Notes under the pieces: model-generated
Told to the model about the DNA's origin: nothing
Database searches by the model: none
The model's input: the letters and a program-made list of their open reading frames with translations, nothing else
Made by a program: the position numbers and the translations under genes
In this document: piece by piece, positions 1 to 17,722 of the stretch
How positions within the stretch are numbered: position 1 is the first letter of the stretch
Layout of the letters: every line of letters begins with the position of its first letter
IMG/VR virus record: IMGVR_UViG_3300043803_000381
Span: 1-26,302 of that record
Reading direction: 5' to 3' (one strand)
DNA from: a virus
Length of the DNA stretch: 26,302 nt

Positions 1-2833
1 TGCTGCAGATGTATTAAACGTAGTGTTAAACGTTGTTGTCGTGTTAAACGCAGTAGTTGTATTAAACAACGTTAAGTATGCAGTTGTAGTGTTAAACACA
101 GTCGTAGTGGCATACGCAGTATCATACAAAGTCGAGGTAGACTTAGAAGTCCCCGTAGTCTTAGAAGTTGATTTAGACGTAGAACCTGTAGTATTAAACG
201 TTGTATTAAACGTTGTTGTAGTATTAAACGTTGTTGTGGTGTTAAATACAGTCAAGAAAGTTGTAGTCGTATCATATGCAGTTGTTGTTGCGTATGCTGT
301 ATTGAACGTCGTCGTCGTGCTTCTCGAAGTACTGGTAAATCTATTAGTACCAATTTGTGTTAGATACGTCGTTGTTGTATTAAACGCAGTAGAGATCGTG
401 GTGTCAGTAGATTTTGACGTTTCTTTGGTTGTCTCTGTGGCTTTACTTGTTTGAGCACTGGTGCTTGTAGACTTAGTGGTCGAACCAGTAGTATTAGTTT
501 CAATTGTTGTACCATACACAGTAGTTGTATTAAACAACGTGGTCGTTGATTTTGAAGTCGCCGTTGCTTTTGAAGTGGCGCCAGTCGTATCAGTTGACTT
601 ACTTGTTGCTGTTAAAGCAGAAGTTTGTGTTGAGAAAACAGTTTGATATGCTGTATCAAACGTAGTATTATATGTTGTAGAAGTAAACGCACCGCTACCA
701 GTAGTTGTTAGTTTACTTGTTGCCGTTGAAGCAGAAGTTTCTTTACTTGTAGAAGTATCGCGTTCGGTAATCTTTGAAGTATTAGTGCTAAAGAACGTAT
801 CAAAAGCAGTATCATATTTCGTAGTGTAAGAAGTCGTCGTAGCATACGCTGTCGAGGTATCGTAAACCGAGTTAGTTAGACGCTTAGTAGAACGATTTGT
901 GTCTGTATAAACCAACGTTGCAGTCGCAATAGTTGTGTCGGTATTAAACACAGTAGTGGTCGCAATGGCAGTATCAAATATGGTCTGAGTATTAAACACA
1001 GAAGTTGTAGATTTACTGGTAGCAGTTACATATGCTGTCGTTGTGTTAAATGTACTTGTTGTAGATTTATTAGTCGATGTAGCATATGCAGTTATAGTGT
1101 CAAAAACTGATGACGTAGATTTATTTGTTGCAGTGGCAAATGTCGTTGTTGTATCGTATGCAGTCGTGGTCGTTTTACCAGTACCATATGCAGTAGATTT
1201 TGACGTTTGAGTTGCAAACTTAGTATCAATCGTTGTAGAAGTATACAACGCAGTCGCTGTTAAAAAATTAGTGGCAAATGCTGAATCGGTGTACTTAGCA
1301 GTTCTATAATTTGTATCAGACAAATATTCAGTTGTAGTGTTTGTAGATTTTGAAGTACCTGTTTCCGTTGAAACTGCAGTTGAATATGCTGTACCAAGCG
1401 CAGTTTGCTTAAATGTATCTGTCGACTTAGAAGTATCTTTATTAGTTGCATAAGAAGTTGCAACTGTTGTCAATACTTCGCCAGTTGTAAAATATGTCTG
1501 AACATCTGTTGGACGCGACGTCGCAACCTTAGTAATGATATCAGTTTGTTTATTTGTCAGCGTAGTTACATCTGTGTCTAAAGTCGTGTCTTTGAACTTG
1601 GTATTGTAAAAAGTTGCAAACTCAGTTTGGAACGAAGTATCATAAATCGTGTTGATAGTAGTCAACAGATTTGTCATAAATGTCGTGCCAGTAAACTTCT
1701 GCGTGTCGACTGTGGTATCTTTTGAAGTAGCATACGCAGTTGTAGTCGCAATCTTTGTTGCGTACGCTGTTAAGAATACAGTTGTTGTTACGCCAGCAGT
1801 TCGAGTGGCTCTGGTCGTCGCATATGCAGTTTGAACTATTGTACCAGCACCACTGTCTGTAGAGATCTTAGTATCAAACGTGGTGGTCGTATTTGTAAAG
1901 TAGCTGGTAACAGTAGCAGTTACTGGTAGAGTATCAATTGTTATGGCTGTATCTACTAACGTATTTGTGTCATACGTTGTTGTTGTGGACACACTAGTAT
2001 CAAATTTTGTAGTACGAGTTGTATCAATCGTAGTATCAGTATTGTAATTGGTAGTGGTATTAATTGTTGTATTGACTAGAGTTCCGCCACTGGTATTAAA
2101 AATTGTATCGTATGTGGTAGAATAACTTGAGTTGATAGCTGTGCTTCTAGACGTGGCAAAAGCAGAAGTTTCTGATACTGTAACTTCTTTTGAACAAGAG
2201 TAAGACCAGACTCCAGGAGGAGCGTCATTAAGGAAAATACAATCATCAAATGTAAATCCTTTCGCAGCAGCATCCGCTATCGCAGCATTTTGATTGACAA
2301 ATCCAGTTTCACTAGCGGAAGTTGTAAATGTTGTATCTGCAGTTATACTTGTATCAAACACAGTTGTTGTGAAGAAGTTAGTTACAACAGATGTTTGGAA
2401 GTTAGTAGCAGCAACACCGCTTAGAGTACCGTAGCTGGTAGCAGTTGTTTTAGATGTGCCAGTCGCATACGCAGTAGCAAATTTAGTGCTTCTACTAGTA
2501 TCATATACTGTAGCTGTACTCTTAGTCGTAGCTGTATCTCTAGCTTCTTGGCCAGCATACGTTGTGCTTGTATAAACAATTGTTCCTACAGCAGTATTAA
2601 TTGCAGTGGCAGTAGTAATTAACGTGCTAAATGCAGTTGTTGTAGAGGTCGAAATTGCTGTTTCGAATGTGGTATCGATAGCAGTTTCGCGCTTTGTCAA
2701 GAACGAAGTTCCATATGCAGATGTGGTTAGATACTCCGTCGCAATTGTAGTCGCGCCAGCAGTTTCTGTAAATCTGCTTGTTGTAACACCAGTAGAAGTC
2801 GTAAGTGTTGTAGAAGTAGAAGTTAGATACTGA
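1..2833 (-). repeat. Degenerate 18-bp (hexapeptide) coding repeat, threonine rich
   Basis: Read on the minus strand, the DNA cycles in 18-bp units encoding hexads of the type x-T-x-[F/Y/K]-x-T, for example TTTFNT, TTTAYV-T and TATSKST. The cleanest units lie at about 20-60 and 190-245. Copies differ at many synonymous positions: all four Thr codons (ACA, ACG, ACT, ACC) are used freely. The protein pattern is therefore conserved better than the DNA, which argues against recent slippage expansion. A non-repetitive segment interrupts it at about 2165-2320. Confidence 0.85.
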
Positions 2834-4434
2834 GTTTCTAGATAATCAATTAGAGCTTCTAGGGTGGTTCCACGAGAAACAGGAACAGATTGAATTACAG
2901 TTCTACCAAATCTTTCCATACCAGCTGGATGCCACAAATCACGAAGAATGCTAGAATACTTGTTAAACGCAGTAACAGCTTGAACTTCGTATGAATATTC
3001 TTGGTAATAATAATTGTCGTGAATATACTTGTCAGAGTTTAAGAAACCGCGAGTAGATTTAAAGAATCCTTCGCCCTTACCCTGACCAAGATAATCAATT
3101 GTACCTGTTGCAACATGCGAAGCATTCGTTACACTTGTTAGCGAAACAGTCGTATTGTTAGTGTAGCCAACACCAGAATTATAGATGGATACAGTAGAAA
3201 CAGCACCAGGACCACTACCAGAAACGCCAGCAATATTTGCATTGAAACCGAGGAATCCGCCAGCTCCATCAGACAGACGAAGCGGATAAATTAAATTATC
3301 GACGATTGCTACGTTTACGTTTGCTTGATAACCACCACCAGGATTAATATTTGTTAATGTAGCAATTGTACCATAAGTGTAGGTGTTTAATGTAAAAATA
3401 CCATTAAACGCAGTCAAATATGTTGCAGATGTATTTGATGAAAATGCAGTATAAGCTGGGGCTGCAGCATTAATTTGAATACTAAGCGCGTTAGTAATTG
3501 GCGTAGAAGTCAAGTCAATTGTGCTTGTATTGCTTAATGATCCAACATCAAAAGACGCAACGCTGGTTGGCGTTTCGCCTAGTGATGGTGTAACTGTTTC
3601 AGAAGCAGTTAATGTAAAACCTGTACCACCATTTCTAATGTCAAAAGTTACAACACCTTGTAGTCTTTGCAGACCAGTTACAATGGCTTGACCATTTACA
3701 CCATCACCGCCAACAACGTTGACGAGTTCACCAAGAGAAAAACCAGGAGAGCTACCGAGAACTTGAATGCTAGAAAGTGATCCGTAAACTTTTGGACTAT
3801 CTGTAACTTCGATGCCCAAGTCGTCTATTACATCTAAATTGATAATTTCTTCATCTGCCGCAAATGTTCCGACAATGTCAGTAATATACAAAATATCGTG
3901 GCGCTGATTACCAGTTACAAATACTTTATAATCATCTACGAAAGCTGTCGCCCCAGAAATGCGACCAGTAATCGTTTTACCGATATATGATGCAATGTTT
4001 GCATTATATTCTAGCTCCAAGTATCTTGGAACAAGCCATTGTGAATCAGATGCACGGATTACGTCTGTTCCAGGAGAATAGACGTTAATGTCTTCGTTGA
4101 ATAAAACGCGGAATAATAATTCTAAACCACGTTCTGTGCCTTTAGAAGAGTATAATTCTTTGATGTGTTTTTGTAGAAGACGTTTATCTGCAGCAACATC
4201 AAGCGGAATACCATGCATGTATTTTTTACGAAAATAATCTACGAACTCATCAAGAGTAGTATCAATATCGCGCCAAGTTGGTAGTCGACGAGCGTCGTAG
4301 ATTACTTGATTAGTTTGTTCTAACCACTCAAAATATGCTCTAACAAATGCAACGAAAGTTGGTCCTTCTTCTCGGTAGATAGAAGGAAACTGACTTTCAA
4401 TGAGTGGAGAAATTAACTTCTCAAGGTCTTTCAT
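1..4434 (-). CDS. Giant Thr-rich baseplate/fibre structural protein (gp7 position), C-terminus outside window
   Basis: An uninterrupted reading frame runs from ATG at 4434 to the left edge: 1478 codons and no stop, so the protein is larger still. It starts inside the gp6 stop (TAATG), so it occupies the place of gene 7 in T4. Residues 1-190 (MKDLEKLISPLIESQFPS...) resemble the N-terminus of the large structural proteins found after gp6 in marine T4-like phages, which I infer is the baseplate-docking part. Residues about 190-530 are Gly/Asn/Thr/Ser-rich and beta-like. From about residue 535 on, the chain is almost half threonine, in loose six-residue units (x-T-x-F/Y/K-x-T, such as TTTFNT), broken once by a non-repetitive island. 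I infer an extended fibre or whisker anchored in the baseplate. Sequence homology to T4 gp7 itself is not visible to me, so no symbol is given. Confidence 0.8.
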   Translation of the reverse strand, partial: MKDLEKLISPLIESQFPSIYREEGPTFVAFVRAYFEWLEQTNQVIYDARRLPTWRDIDTTLDEFVDYFRKKYMHGIPLDVAADKRLLQKHIKELYSSKGTERGLELLFRVLFNEDINVYSPGTDVIRASDSQWLVPRYLELEYNANIASYIGKTITGRISGATAFVDDYKVFVTGNQRHDILYITDIVGTFAADEEIINLDVIDDLGIEVTDSPKVYGSLSSIQVLGSSPGFSLGELVNVVGGDGVNGQAIVTGLQRLQGVVTFDIRNGGTGFTLTASETVTPSLGETPTSVASFDVGSLSNTSTIDLTSTPITNALSIQINAAAPAYTAFSSNTSATYLTAFNGIFTLNTYTYGTIATLTNINPGGGYQANVNVAIVDNLIYPLRLSDGAGGFLGFNANIAGVSGSGPGAVSTVSIYNSGVGYTNNTTVSLTSVTNASHVATGTIDYLGQGKGEGFFKSTRGFLNSDKYIHDNYYYQEYSYEVQAVTAFNKYSSILRDLWHPAGMERFGRTVIQSVPVSRGTTLEALIDYLETQYLTSTSTTLTTSTGVTTSRFTETAGATTIATEYLTTSAYGTSFLTKRETAIDTTFETAISTSTTTAFSTLITTATAINTAVGTIVYTSTTYAGQEARDTATTKSTATVYDTSRSTKFATAYATGTSKTTATSYGTLSGVAATNFQTSVVTNFFTTTVFDTSITADTTFTTSASETGFVNQNAAIADAAAKGFTFDDCIFLNDAPPGVWSYSCSKEVTVSETSAFATSRSTAINSSYSTTYDTIFNTSGGTLVNTTINTTTNYNTDTTIDTTRTTKFDTSVSTTTTYDTNTLVDTAITIDTLPVTATVTSYFTNTTTTFDTKISTDSGAGTIVQTAYATTRATRTAGVTTTVFLTAYATKIATTTAYATSKDTTVDTQKFTGTTFMTNLLTTINTIYDTSFQTEFATFYNTKFKDTTLDTDVTTLTNKQTDIITKVATSRPTDVQTYFTTGEVLTTVATSYATNKDTSKSTDTFKQTALGTAYSTAVSTETGTSKSTNTTTEYLSDTNYRTAKYTDSAFATNFLTATALYTSTTIDTKFATQTSKSTAYGTGKTTTTAYDTTTTFATATNKSTSSVFDTITAYATSTNKSTTSTFNTTTAYVTATSKSTTSVFNTQTIFDTAIATTTVFNTDTTIATATLVYTDTNRSTKRLTNSVYDTSTAYATTTSYTTKYDTAFDTFFSTNTSKITERDTSTSKETSASTATSKLTTTGSGAFTSTTYNTTFDTAYQTVFSTQTSALTATSKSTDTTGATSKATATSKSTTTLFNTTTVYGTTIETNTTGSTTKSTSTSAQTSKATETTKETSKSTDTTISTAFNTTTTYLTQIGTNRFTSTSRSTTTTFNTAYATTTAYDTTTTFLTVFNTTTTFNTTTTFNTTFNTTGSTSKSTSKTTGTSKSTSTLYDTAYATTTVFNTTTAYLTLFNTTTAFNTTTTFNTTFNTSAA

Positions 4435-15182: not shown

Positions 15183-15878
15183 ATGGCTTTACCCAAAATT
15201 AAACAACCTATCTTTGAACTAGAGATTCCATCGTCGGGTCAAAAGATTCGTTATAGACCATTTACCGTAGCTGAAGAAAAGATTCTTCTTATCACAAAAG
15301 AAAGTGATGATATAAAAGATACGATAAATGCATACAAAGCAATCGTAAATAACTGTTGCTTGGATAAAATTGATGTTGACAAATTATGTTCATTCGACTT
15401 AGAATATTTCTTTCTGAACATTAGATCTAAATCTGTTTCTAATATTGTTGCAGCAAGAGTAAAAGACGAAGACGATGGACAGATATATGAAGTAGAAGTT
15501 GATCTTGATAAATTAATGGTATCAAAAATGAAACCAGAAAGATTAATCAAATTAACTGATGATATTTCGGTCTTCATGAACTATCCTACTTTTGATGTTA
15601 TTGCAAAGATAGGAAAGGTAGACGAAACCACTCAAATGCTGAGAACCATGATTGCTTGCATTGAACAAATCTATCAAGGTGAAGAAGTATTTGAAACATC
15701 AGAATATTCGCAAAAAGATATGGAAGAATTCGTTCTTTCTATGGGTGTTAAGGAACTTCAAAAGATTAAAGAGTTTTTCGACGCTATGCCAAAAGTATAT
15801 GCAGAAGTAAAGTATAAAACAAAAGATGGCGTCGAGAAAATGATTACGCTAGAGGGTATTCAAAGTTTTTTCGATTAA
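15183..15878 (+). CDS. 26: Baseplate hub/tail assembly protein gp26 (T4_baseplate family)
   Basis: The start at 15183 has GGAG 9 nt upstream; 231 aa (T4 gp26 is 208). The N-terminus (MALPKIKQPIFELEIPSSGQ, then KIRYRPFTVAEEKILLITKES) and LEYFFLNIRSKSV are typical of the gp26 family (Pfam T4_baseplate, from memory). It lies between the tube-initiator gene and the tape measure, the classical place of tail assembly chaperones (lambda G). The last codons are AGT TTT TTC GAT TAA; T-TTT-TTC is a perfect -1 slippery heptamer followed by a hairpin, so a fraction may continue into the next ORF as a 289-aa G-T-like fusion. An upstream in-frame ATG at 15162 has no ribosome site and is not used. Confidence 0.87.
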   Translation: MALPKIKQPIFELEIPSSGQKIRYRPFTVAEEKILLITKESDDIKDTINAYKAIVNNCCLDKIDVDKLCSFDLEYFFLNIRSKSVSNIVAARVKDEDDGQIYEVEVDLDKLMVSKMKPERLIKLTDDISVFMNYPTFDVIAKIGKVDETTQMLRTMIACIEQIYQGEEVFETSEYSQKDMEEFVLSMGVKELQKIKEFFDAMPKVYAEVKYKTKDGVEKMITLEGIQSFFD

Positions 15879-15900
15879 TGGTAGGGTATATGTCCCTACC
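15866..15900 (+). promoter_or_regulatory. Predicted -1 programmed ribosomal frameshift signal
   Basis: The slippery heptamer T TTT TTC (15866-15872) is in the zero frame of gp26 as X-XXY-YYZ. A 7-nt spacer follows (15873-15879, containing the gp26 stop TAA). Then comes a perfect 7-bp hairpin, GGTAGGG (15880-15886) with CCCTACC (15894-15900) around a 7-nt loop. Slipping back one base gives frame CGA TTA ATG GTA, which runs open through 16051. Heptamer, spacing and stem are all canonical. Confidence 0.75.
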
Positions 15901-16051
15901 GCATTATTACGAACTTAACTTTGCATTGATGCAGCATCACAAGTATTCTCTTGAAGATATCAATGAGTGGCTACCATTCGAGCGAGATATCTACGTTAAT
16001 ATGTTACTGAAACATTTAGAAAAAGAAAAAGAACAATCAAAGAGAAAATAA
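15878..16051 (+). CDS. Small tail assembly chaperone ORF (lambda T-like part / gp51 position)
   Basis: 57 aa from the ATG at 15878 (TAATG with gp26), or 53 aa from the ATG at 15890. The same frame is also reached by a -1 shift from gp26. The sequence (SLPHYYELNFALMQHHKYSL, then EDINEWLPFERDIYVNMLL and a Lys/Glu-rich end) has the WxPFERxIYVxML pattern I associate with the C-terminal, T-like part of phage tail chaperones. In T4, gene 51 (a hub assembly factor) belongs to the same pathway, but is much longer (249 aa). The ATG at 15890 and the GGTAGGG before it lie in the hairpin, which should hinder independent initiation. It abuts the tape measure (TAA then ATG). Confidence 0.75.
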   Translation: MVGYMSLPHYYELNFALMQHHKYSLEDINEWLPFERDIYVNMLLKHLEKEKEQSKRK

Positions 16052-17722
16052 ATGGCAACCAAACCGCTACCAACAATCGCTACTGATTCACAAGGGCGTC
16101 CAGTAAAAGAAGATGAGAAATCAACAGATATTAAAATATCAGTTGACACTCAAAAAGTGCAACTCGCTGTCCTTACAGATCTTCTCGGTGTTGTTAAAAA
16201 CATAGCAGATAATATGGTTGCTGTGATGCGCTCTCAAGGAATTATGTATGCAGGCATGGACGCTTATCTTGATGTAGCGCGTGTAGAAACCAAGAATAGA
16301 CTAGCCGAAAAAGAAAAAGAAAAAGAAGCTAAATTAGGCGAAGGCGAGCAAGAAAAAAGTCCGCTTGGGAAATTGTTTGACGAATACTTTGGTAGTCTCA
16401 AGAGATTATTGACAATAATTACAGCAGTTCTGGTACCATTTCTATTAGGATTCGTATTAAGTTTTATCGATCTTACCAAACCACTAGATTTATTAAAGGC
16501 TGCTCTTATCGGTCTGGCTGCATACATTGGTGGTAAGTTTCTACTGCTATTGGCGAAAAATTGGATTAAGAACATGTTCTTAGGTCCAAAAACAATCATG
16601 GCTCCTGGTTCTACTATAATCGCAACTCAAGGAATTGGCGGAGTCGCAGGTAAAGGTAAAAAAGGTATTCCTAAAGGAGTCGGGACAACCATTGGTACTG
16701 GAGTCGCAACTACTGAAGTGGCTGCTGGTGGCGGTATGCTTGCTAGATTTGGTAAAGGACTTTTGGGATTGGTGAAAACTGTTGGTAAACTGTCTGGAAT
16801 CCTTGCGCTTGTTATGGGTGCTATCGAAGGTCTATTCGGTGGTATTACTGGAGCAATCGAAGGATTCGAAAAAGGTGGCATTGTCGGGGGATTTAGAGGT
16901 CTTTTAGCAGGAGTCACCACTGGTTTTATTAATGGCTTATTAGGAATCTTCGTAGATATAGGACAATTTCTTCTTTCTGGTCTTTTAGATTTGATTGGAC
17001 TTGAAGATGCAGCGAAGATAGTTGAAGAGTTTAATTTTAAAGAATTCTTAGACAAATATGTCGGGTTCTTAAATCCAATCGTAGGATTTATTGATTTATT
17101 TGATGAAACTAGTGTAATTAGAAAAAACTTCGACAAAGCACTTGATAATGTTAGCAATGTCGGTGATTTTGTTTCTAACATCTGGGAAGACATCACAAAA
17201 GCGATTCGCGAAGTTTTAATAAAGCTGGCGGGAGCTGTTCCGTTTGGTAACACTCTATTAAGCTGGTTAGGAATAAAAAAACCATCTGGTCCAAAGCCAG
17301 TAGACGAAGAAAAAGCAATAGGTTCAGCACAAGAACAATTAAAGAAAGGTGGGCGCGAAGATATAGCAGAAAAATTGGAAGGTGTAACCACCGTAAAAGA
17401 AGCCAAAAAAATTATAACAGATGCAGGATATAGTGAAAGCCTAGCATCAGAATTACTTGGCGTACCACAAGCATCTGCAGTACCAAAAGCAGTACCAGCT
17501 CCAGCCGCAAACAGAGCAGAAGAACTTAACAGAAAAACTGAAGAAGCAAAAGCCAAACCACCAGCGGCACCTGCACCAGCTGTAAACAATACAACAGTTG
17601 TAAATGCACCAAATAATATTCGATCAACCACTAATATGAATCAAGCACCACACGCAGAACGAGCTGGTCTCGGCAGTAGAGGAAATGCTGGGTTCAGTGG
17701 ATTCAGTAAAGCATATACCTAA
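16052..17722 (+). CDS. 29: Tape measure / tail length determinator (gp29-like hub protein)
   Basis: 556 aa (T4 gp29 is 590). A charged helical N-terminus (residues 1-110, ending in Lys/Glu repeats) is followed by strongly hydrophobic stretches at about 119-141 (LLTIITAVLVPFLLGFVLSF), 143-167 and 225-320 (Gly/Leu/Ile-rich). The C-terminus is Ala/Pro-rich, ending with Asn-rich NNTTVVNAPNN. Central hydrophobic helices are usual in tape measures, which run through the tube and may enter the membrane at DNA ejection. It directly follows the chaperone pair, as in virtually all tailed phages. Sequence similarity to T4 gp29 is weak; position and architecture carry the call. Confidence 0.78.
   Translation: MATKPLPTIATDSQGRPVKEDEKSTDIKISVDTQKVQLAVLTDLLGVVKNIADNMVAVMRSQGIMYAGMDAYLDVARVETKNRLAEKEKEKEAKLGEGEQEKSPLGKLFDEYFGSLKRLLTIITAVLVPFLLGFVLSFIDLTKPLDLLKAALIGLAAYIGGKFLLLLAKNWIKNMFLGPKTIMAPGSTIIATQGIGGVAGKGKKGIPKGVGTTIGTGVATTEVAAGGGMLARFGKGLLGLVKTVGKLSGILALVMGAIEGLFGGITGAIEGFEKGGIVGGFRGLLAGVTTGFINGLLGIFVDIGQFLLSGLLDLIGLEDAAKIVEEFNFKEFLDKYVGFLNPIVGFIDLFDETSVIRKNFDKALDNVSNVGDFVSNIWEDITKAIREVLIKLAGAVPFGNTLLSWLGIKKPSGPKPVDEEKAIGSAQEQLKKGGREDIAEKLEGVTTVKEAKKIITDAGYSESLASELLGVPQASAVPKAVPAPAANRAEELNRKTEEAKAKPPAAPAPAVNNTTVVNAPNNIRSTTNMNQAPHAERAGLGSRGNAGFSGFSKAYT

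Follow-up and report, generated by a model that had tools for sequence, protein, structure and literature searches.

A conserved, predicted -1 frameshift signal joins gp26 to a T-like domain in an uncultured relative of phage T4

Phage lambda makes a short protein, gpG, and a frameshifted long form, gpGT, using the slippery heptamer G GGA AAG and a small open reading frame (ORF) in the -1 frame that directly precedes the tape measure gene. Among T4-like phages, frameshifting is reportedly kept in several groups and T4's own group uses genes 26 and 51, as the abstract of Vladimirov and co-workers is said to state. The title of that study names tail assembly chaperone (TAC) genes of T4-like phages (Vladimirov, Gautam and Davidson 2022, Virology 566:9-15), and it is credited with poly-T slippery sites in T4-like TAC-N genes (PMC12846349) and, for some T4-likes, with a short gene and a fused long gene that are separate (PRFect). 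A frameshift-made tail chaperone is therefore known in principle, because that work identified the TAC genes of T4-like phages. To judge from its title and from PMC12846349, it also made the link between T4-like hub genes and the tail-chaperone system, for which an initial sequence-only reading of the DNA described here had implied novelty. A 2016 review still listed G-T frameshifting as widely conserved "except T4" (Atkins et al. 2016, PMC5009743); the comparison below puts most T4 relatives among the frameshifters. In T4, gp26 and gp51 are both listed as hub assembly chaperones (PMC3004832), and gp51 was reported as missing in Aeh1 and as ~20% of full length in cyanophages (Sullivan et al. 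2010, PMC3037559). The E. coli dnaX gene combines an internal Shine-Dalgarno (SD) sequence, a slippery heptamer (A AAA AAG) and a 3' stem-loop, and the SD spacing for -1 stimulation is 9-14 nt (PMC5009743).

The window analyzed here is a 26,302-nt stretch of DNA from an uncultured T4-like phage, in which the last codons of gp26 are CAA AGT TTT TTC GAT TAA (Table 1). A 7-nt spacer (15873-15879) with the TAA inside separates the heptamer from a stem in which GGTAGGG (15880-15886) pairs with CCCTACC (15894-15900) around the loop TATATGT. Past the shift, the -1 frame stays open until a stop whose last base is 16051, and it reads FF-RLMVGYMSLPHYY..PFERDIYVNML.., also written FF-RLMVGYMSLPHYYELNF...PFERDIYVNML.... 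All of these elements had been located correctly, to the base, by the sequence-only reading. The arrangement resembles lambda G/GT in having a short protein, a frameshifted long form and a small -1 ORF immediately ahead of the tape measure gene; it differs in its heptamer, in its SD-like and stem elements and in the ~230-aa length of gp26. It resembles dnaX in its three elements, with an SD spacing of 8-11 nt among relatives; it differs in that the heptamer is U-rich and the shifted product is the longer one.

Table 1. Features at the gp26 junction in the window (TAC-N and TAC-C, N- and C-terminal parts of the predicted chaperone).
Feature	Position	Strand	Basis
gp26/TAC-N (G-like) ORF, 231 aa + TAA	15183..15878	+	PF12322, phrog_150, AF2 model
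Internal SD-like GAGGG, putative frameshift stimulator	15852..15856	+	9 nt 5' of heptamer; duplex energy -6.3
Slippery heptamer T TTT TTC	15866-15872	+	X XXY YYZ phase in gp26 frame; read directly, conserved
-1 frame T-like domain (TAC-C)	15872..16051	+	reads FF, then RLMVGYMS..., post-shift; phrog_634, phrog_150 C-terminal end
0-frame stop TAA of gp26	15876-15878	+	overlaps ATG 15878
Putative stem-loop stimulator, 7 bp, loop 7 nt	15880..15900	+	folding energy, covariation in window clade
Probable tail tape measure ORF, 556 aa	16052..17722	+	mainly position; phrog_28 E=0.0023

We consider it very probable that gene 26 ends in a cassette for programmed -1 ribosomal frameshifting, made up of these elements. 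At the TAA (15876) the majority of ribosomes would terminate, and their product would be gp26 by itself (TAC-N, the short, G-like form). The remainder, detained by the hairpin and by base pairing between 16S rRNA and the internal GAGGG, would shift by -1 on T TTT TTC and read on as far as 16051, yielding a 289-aa gp26-T fusion (TAC-NC, GT-like). By analogy with lambda G/GT, the short form may coat the product of the tape measure gene that follows, and tail tube subunits may be recruited by the T domain. Signal, frame, conservation, stem covariation and homology of the fusion to T4 gp51 are all read from sequence; the slipping itself, its efficiency and the chaperone function we infer.

The gp26 protein of the window belongs to PF12322 (T4_baseplate; E=4.6e-53, 180.6 bits against a gathering cut-off of 24.5) and to phrog_150 (E=2.9e-57). 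Its AF2 model (pLDDT 88.7) had no significant match to solved tail chaperones in Foldseek, where HK97 gp13 (2ob9) came up only at E 2.2-3.4, prob 0.06-0.13 (best E=2.2, prob 0.13), and a PDB sequence search with the gp26 profile gave no match. The small ORF, 57 aa when read from ATG 15878, is annotated elsewhere as "gp51 baseplate hub assembly catalyst". Its product matches the family of that name (phrog_634, E=5.5e-23) and the last 40 columns of phrog_150, and the T profile matches the C-termini of T4-type gp51 (E 3e-12 to 5e-7), which bears out the T-like identity first proposed from its letters. One base past the T stop, at 16052, begins the ORF that had been labeled the tape measure. The label agrees with the position just after T, and family support is weak (Table 1). 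Relatives also carry a long co-directional ORF after T, with four hydrophobic segments, and T4 gp29 found no match among the ORFs downstream of T (phmmer). Mainly from position and the hydrophobic segments, the 556-aa ORF is likely the tape measure. Upstream of gp26 in the window is an ORF of the tail tube family phrog_45, and the two-ORF layout, with the second in the -1 frame and the order tube-type genes, gp26, T, is found in the window and in relatives.

Relatives were collected using gp26 protein patterns rather than the heptamer, and annotated phages were added; the T-like domain alignment (A1) was too divergent for scanning. Every relative examined with a complete junction has the T ORF in the -1 frame, including phages of Synechococcus, Stenotrophomonas, Sinorhizobium, Pseudomonas, Delftia, Aeromonas, Vibrio and Ochrobactrum. 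An in-frame T TTT TT(C/T/A) lies within four codons of the gp26 stop in 167 of 169 distinct junctions, and the two without it are from Ackermannviridae-type phages. Among 124 representatives (junctions <80% identical in nucleotides), third positions are saturated (median pairwise identity 0.33), and only the two slippery third positions are invariant: the third base is T at codons -1 and 0 in 100%, and the next best of the last 70 codons reaches 73%. The amino acid before FF varies (Ser, Asp, Asn, Thr, Ala), yet its codon always ends in T (124/124). Given the amino acids, the T codons have a rough probability of ~2e-10 over 28 lineages (<60% nucleotide identity), with independence assumed. The heptamer is not a chance occurrence, because it is conserved in 167 of 169 junctions with invariant slippery third positions. 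That it merely reflects conservation of Phe-Phe at the C-terminus of gp26 appears scarcely credible: FF is invariant in gp26 alignments and T4 gp26 also ends KEFFELL, but the codons differ. T4 gp26 as a query of viral contigs found only close relatives, so T4-type controls were taken from phage records. Eight phages that have gp51 as a separate gene, T4 among them, carry TTC TTT, TTC TTC or other codons at the FF position of gp26; those that keep FF use TTC TTT or TTC TTC, and the heptamer is absent (0/8). All 124 representatives of the frameshift group have TTT as the first Phe codon, preceded by a codon that ends in T whichever amino acid it specifies, and none of the 167 junctions has FF as TTC TTT with an intact T ORF.

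Upstream of the heptamer, SD-like 8-mers peak across relatives over -18 to -7. Those at -15 to -8 have a mean anti-SD binding energy of -5.4 versus a background of 0.5 kcal/mol. The element is found in 18 of 28 lineages (<60% identity) compared with 10% in background (p=5e-12), and the distance from the end of the SD tetramer to the heptamer is 8-11 nt in nearly all cases. Codon choice follows it: for Glu before a GG codon, GAG:GAA is 60:21 at the SD-like site and 16:62 elsewhere in gp26 (p=6e-25). The GAGGG of the window fits the published 9-14 nt range for -1 shifting, and its putative role as a stimulator is open to direct test. Downstream, mean folding energy over 124 relatives has one strong peak at +5 to +54 nt (40-nt windows starting 0-15 nt past the heptamer start). 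The stem of the window folds at -12.6 kcal/mol (z -2.96), and 2 of 200 shuffles did as well. Within its clade, 97.4% of cells are paired, and both sides have changed in 8 cells over three stem pairs, compared with 0-3 in slid controls. Both the SD elements and the stems are stronger at TTTTTTC than at TTTTTTT sites (p 1e-4 and 4e-4 among the 124 representatives, with kinship ignored), which is suggestive of a trade-off in which stimulators offset slipperiness and are weaker at TTTTTTT sites.

The same fusion product would arise if RNA polymerase slipped on the run of six or seven T and the resulting indel mRNAs were translated normally. We regard such transcriptional slippage as highly improbable. 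Six T is short next to the runs of 9 A or T on which it has been described in bacteria (Atkins et al., PMC5009743), and it would give no selection for X XXY YYZ in a fixed phase, for an SD-like element 9 nt ahead of it or for a stem 7 nt behind it. Slightly less improbable, and still very unlikely, is that ribosomes terminate at TAA 15876 and restart at the overlapping ATG 15878, producing a free 57-aa T protein and no fusion. This had been offered as a competing explanation at the outset and has proved weak. Databases do list "gp51" as a separate gene, the stop and an ATG overlap in 24 of 162 relatives, and TAATG in the window could permit some reinitiation. However, ATG 15878 has no SD at initiation spacing, as is true of all but one of 61 internal ATGs in relatives. 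In 45 of 162 relatives no ATG, GTG or TTG lies ahead of the T domain, so reinitiation cannot make T there. Among these 45 is the near group L023-L027, in which the stem holds its register and shows compensatory changes. Reinitiation further leaves unexplained the invariant heptamer, the 8-11 nt SD-heptamer spacing and the covarying stem, and the encoding of the gp26-T unit as a fusion in T4-type phages speaks against it. In relatives without a start codon, frameshifting is predicted to be the sole route to the T domain, barring a very unusual start. The original proposal of -1 frameshifting has withstood these comparisons, and the site is a genuine one that T4 relatives share.

T4 itself is arranged differently. 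Its gp26 and gp51 both match PF12322, and a T-like C-terminus is present in gp51. The profile of the predicted fusion aligned to T4-type gp51 over 243 columns, across the joint (hhalign, prob 99.6, E 8e-25), so that the long form is the short form plus a C-terminal domain, and the proposed G/GT analogy holds on this point. The short (gp26) and long (gp51) forms of T4 are paralogous genes, gp51 being a gp26 paralogue with a T-like domain fused. They are separate genes on opposite strands and gp26 has no heptamer, in line with the initial remark that T4 has separate genes 26 and 51 and no established slippery site. Because the fusion aligns with gp51 and gp26 there lacks the heptamer, duplication and fusion seem to have taken the place of the frameshift in T4-type phages. 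On this comparison, frameshifting is indicated for most relatives of T4, with T4 itself derived; the direction is drawn from the wider distribution of the frameshift form. In the Klebsiella phage vB_KpnM_05F (Slopekvirus; L219 1501-2795), gp51 and a gp26-like gene are adjacent on the same strand in the order 51 then 26, unlike the divergent layout of T4. Separately, T4 gp26 (L037 2803-3429) has a weak match (E 9e-4) to phrog_1140 (hub distal subunit gp28), and a distant kinship of hub proteins is possible.

The frameshifted form also bears on published accounts of gp51. In Aeromonas phage Aeh1, the unannotated gap after gp26 (L247 18836-19001) codes in the -1 frame for the T domain, preceded by T TTT TTC. 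There is no start codon ahead of the domain; gp51 was called missing because it lies in the -1 frame without one. The frameshift form likewise accounts for cyanophage gp51 resembling no more than the last, C-terminal fifth of the T4 protein. Among the genes named "baseplate hub assembly catalyst" in phage records, many are probably the downstream half of a gene that is read by frameshifting.

Ackermannviridae (L043, L044, L210, L220-L244) keep the T-like -1 ORF and have no canonical heptamer. The combination of both ORFs without a heptamer had been named as the case that would count against frameshifting; it was found in this family and in none of the relatives outside it. In these genomes gp26 ends [GA]TT TTC ATY TRA or CTT TTT, the -1 codon overlapping the gp26 stop is ATG, ATT, ATC or ATA, and most of the enterobacterial members have no ATG at the junction. 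Entry to the -1 frame may be by a one-tRNA slip, a near-cognate restart or a stop-hop. A stop-hop from ATY to ATY fits some genomes; in others the landing position is ATG or ATA.

Taken tentatively, and with a little less than even confidence, tail-chaperone frameshifting in the T4 superfamily may be a three-part dnaX-like cassette (internal Shine-Dalgarno, U6/U7 heptamer and stem-loop), with U7 paired with weaker stimulators so that the short:long ratio stays steady, T4 reaching its 26/51 pair by duplication and fusion and Ackermannviridae using a different, non-canonical -1 entry. The genes appear to be those of the Vladimirov et al. 2022 system (26 and 51 families, as named in its title and in papers that credit it), while the lineage of the window is distinct in that a DNA-level search of this region against phage isolates gave no match. 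Neither the SD-like stimulator nor the Ackermannviridae variant was found described in the searchable literature, and Vladimirov et al. 2022 may cover them. The SD-like element, the account of the "missing" gp51 in Aeh1 and the non-canonical Ackermannviridae variant are apparently new details. Elsewhere in the window, the minus strand of positions 1-4434 holds an ORF of 1478+ aa that runs off the end, possibly a fiber or adhesin, and its C-terminal half consists of short, Thr-rich degenerate repeats (TTxFNTTT-like).
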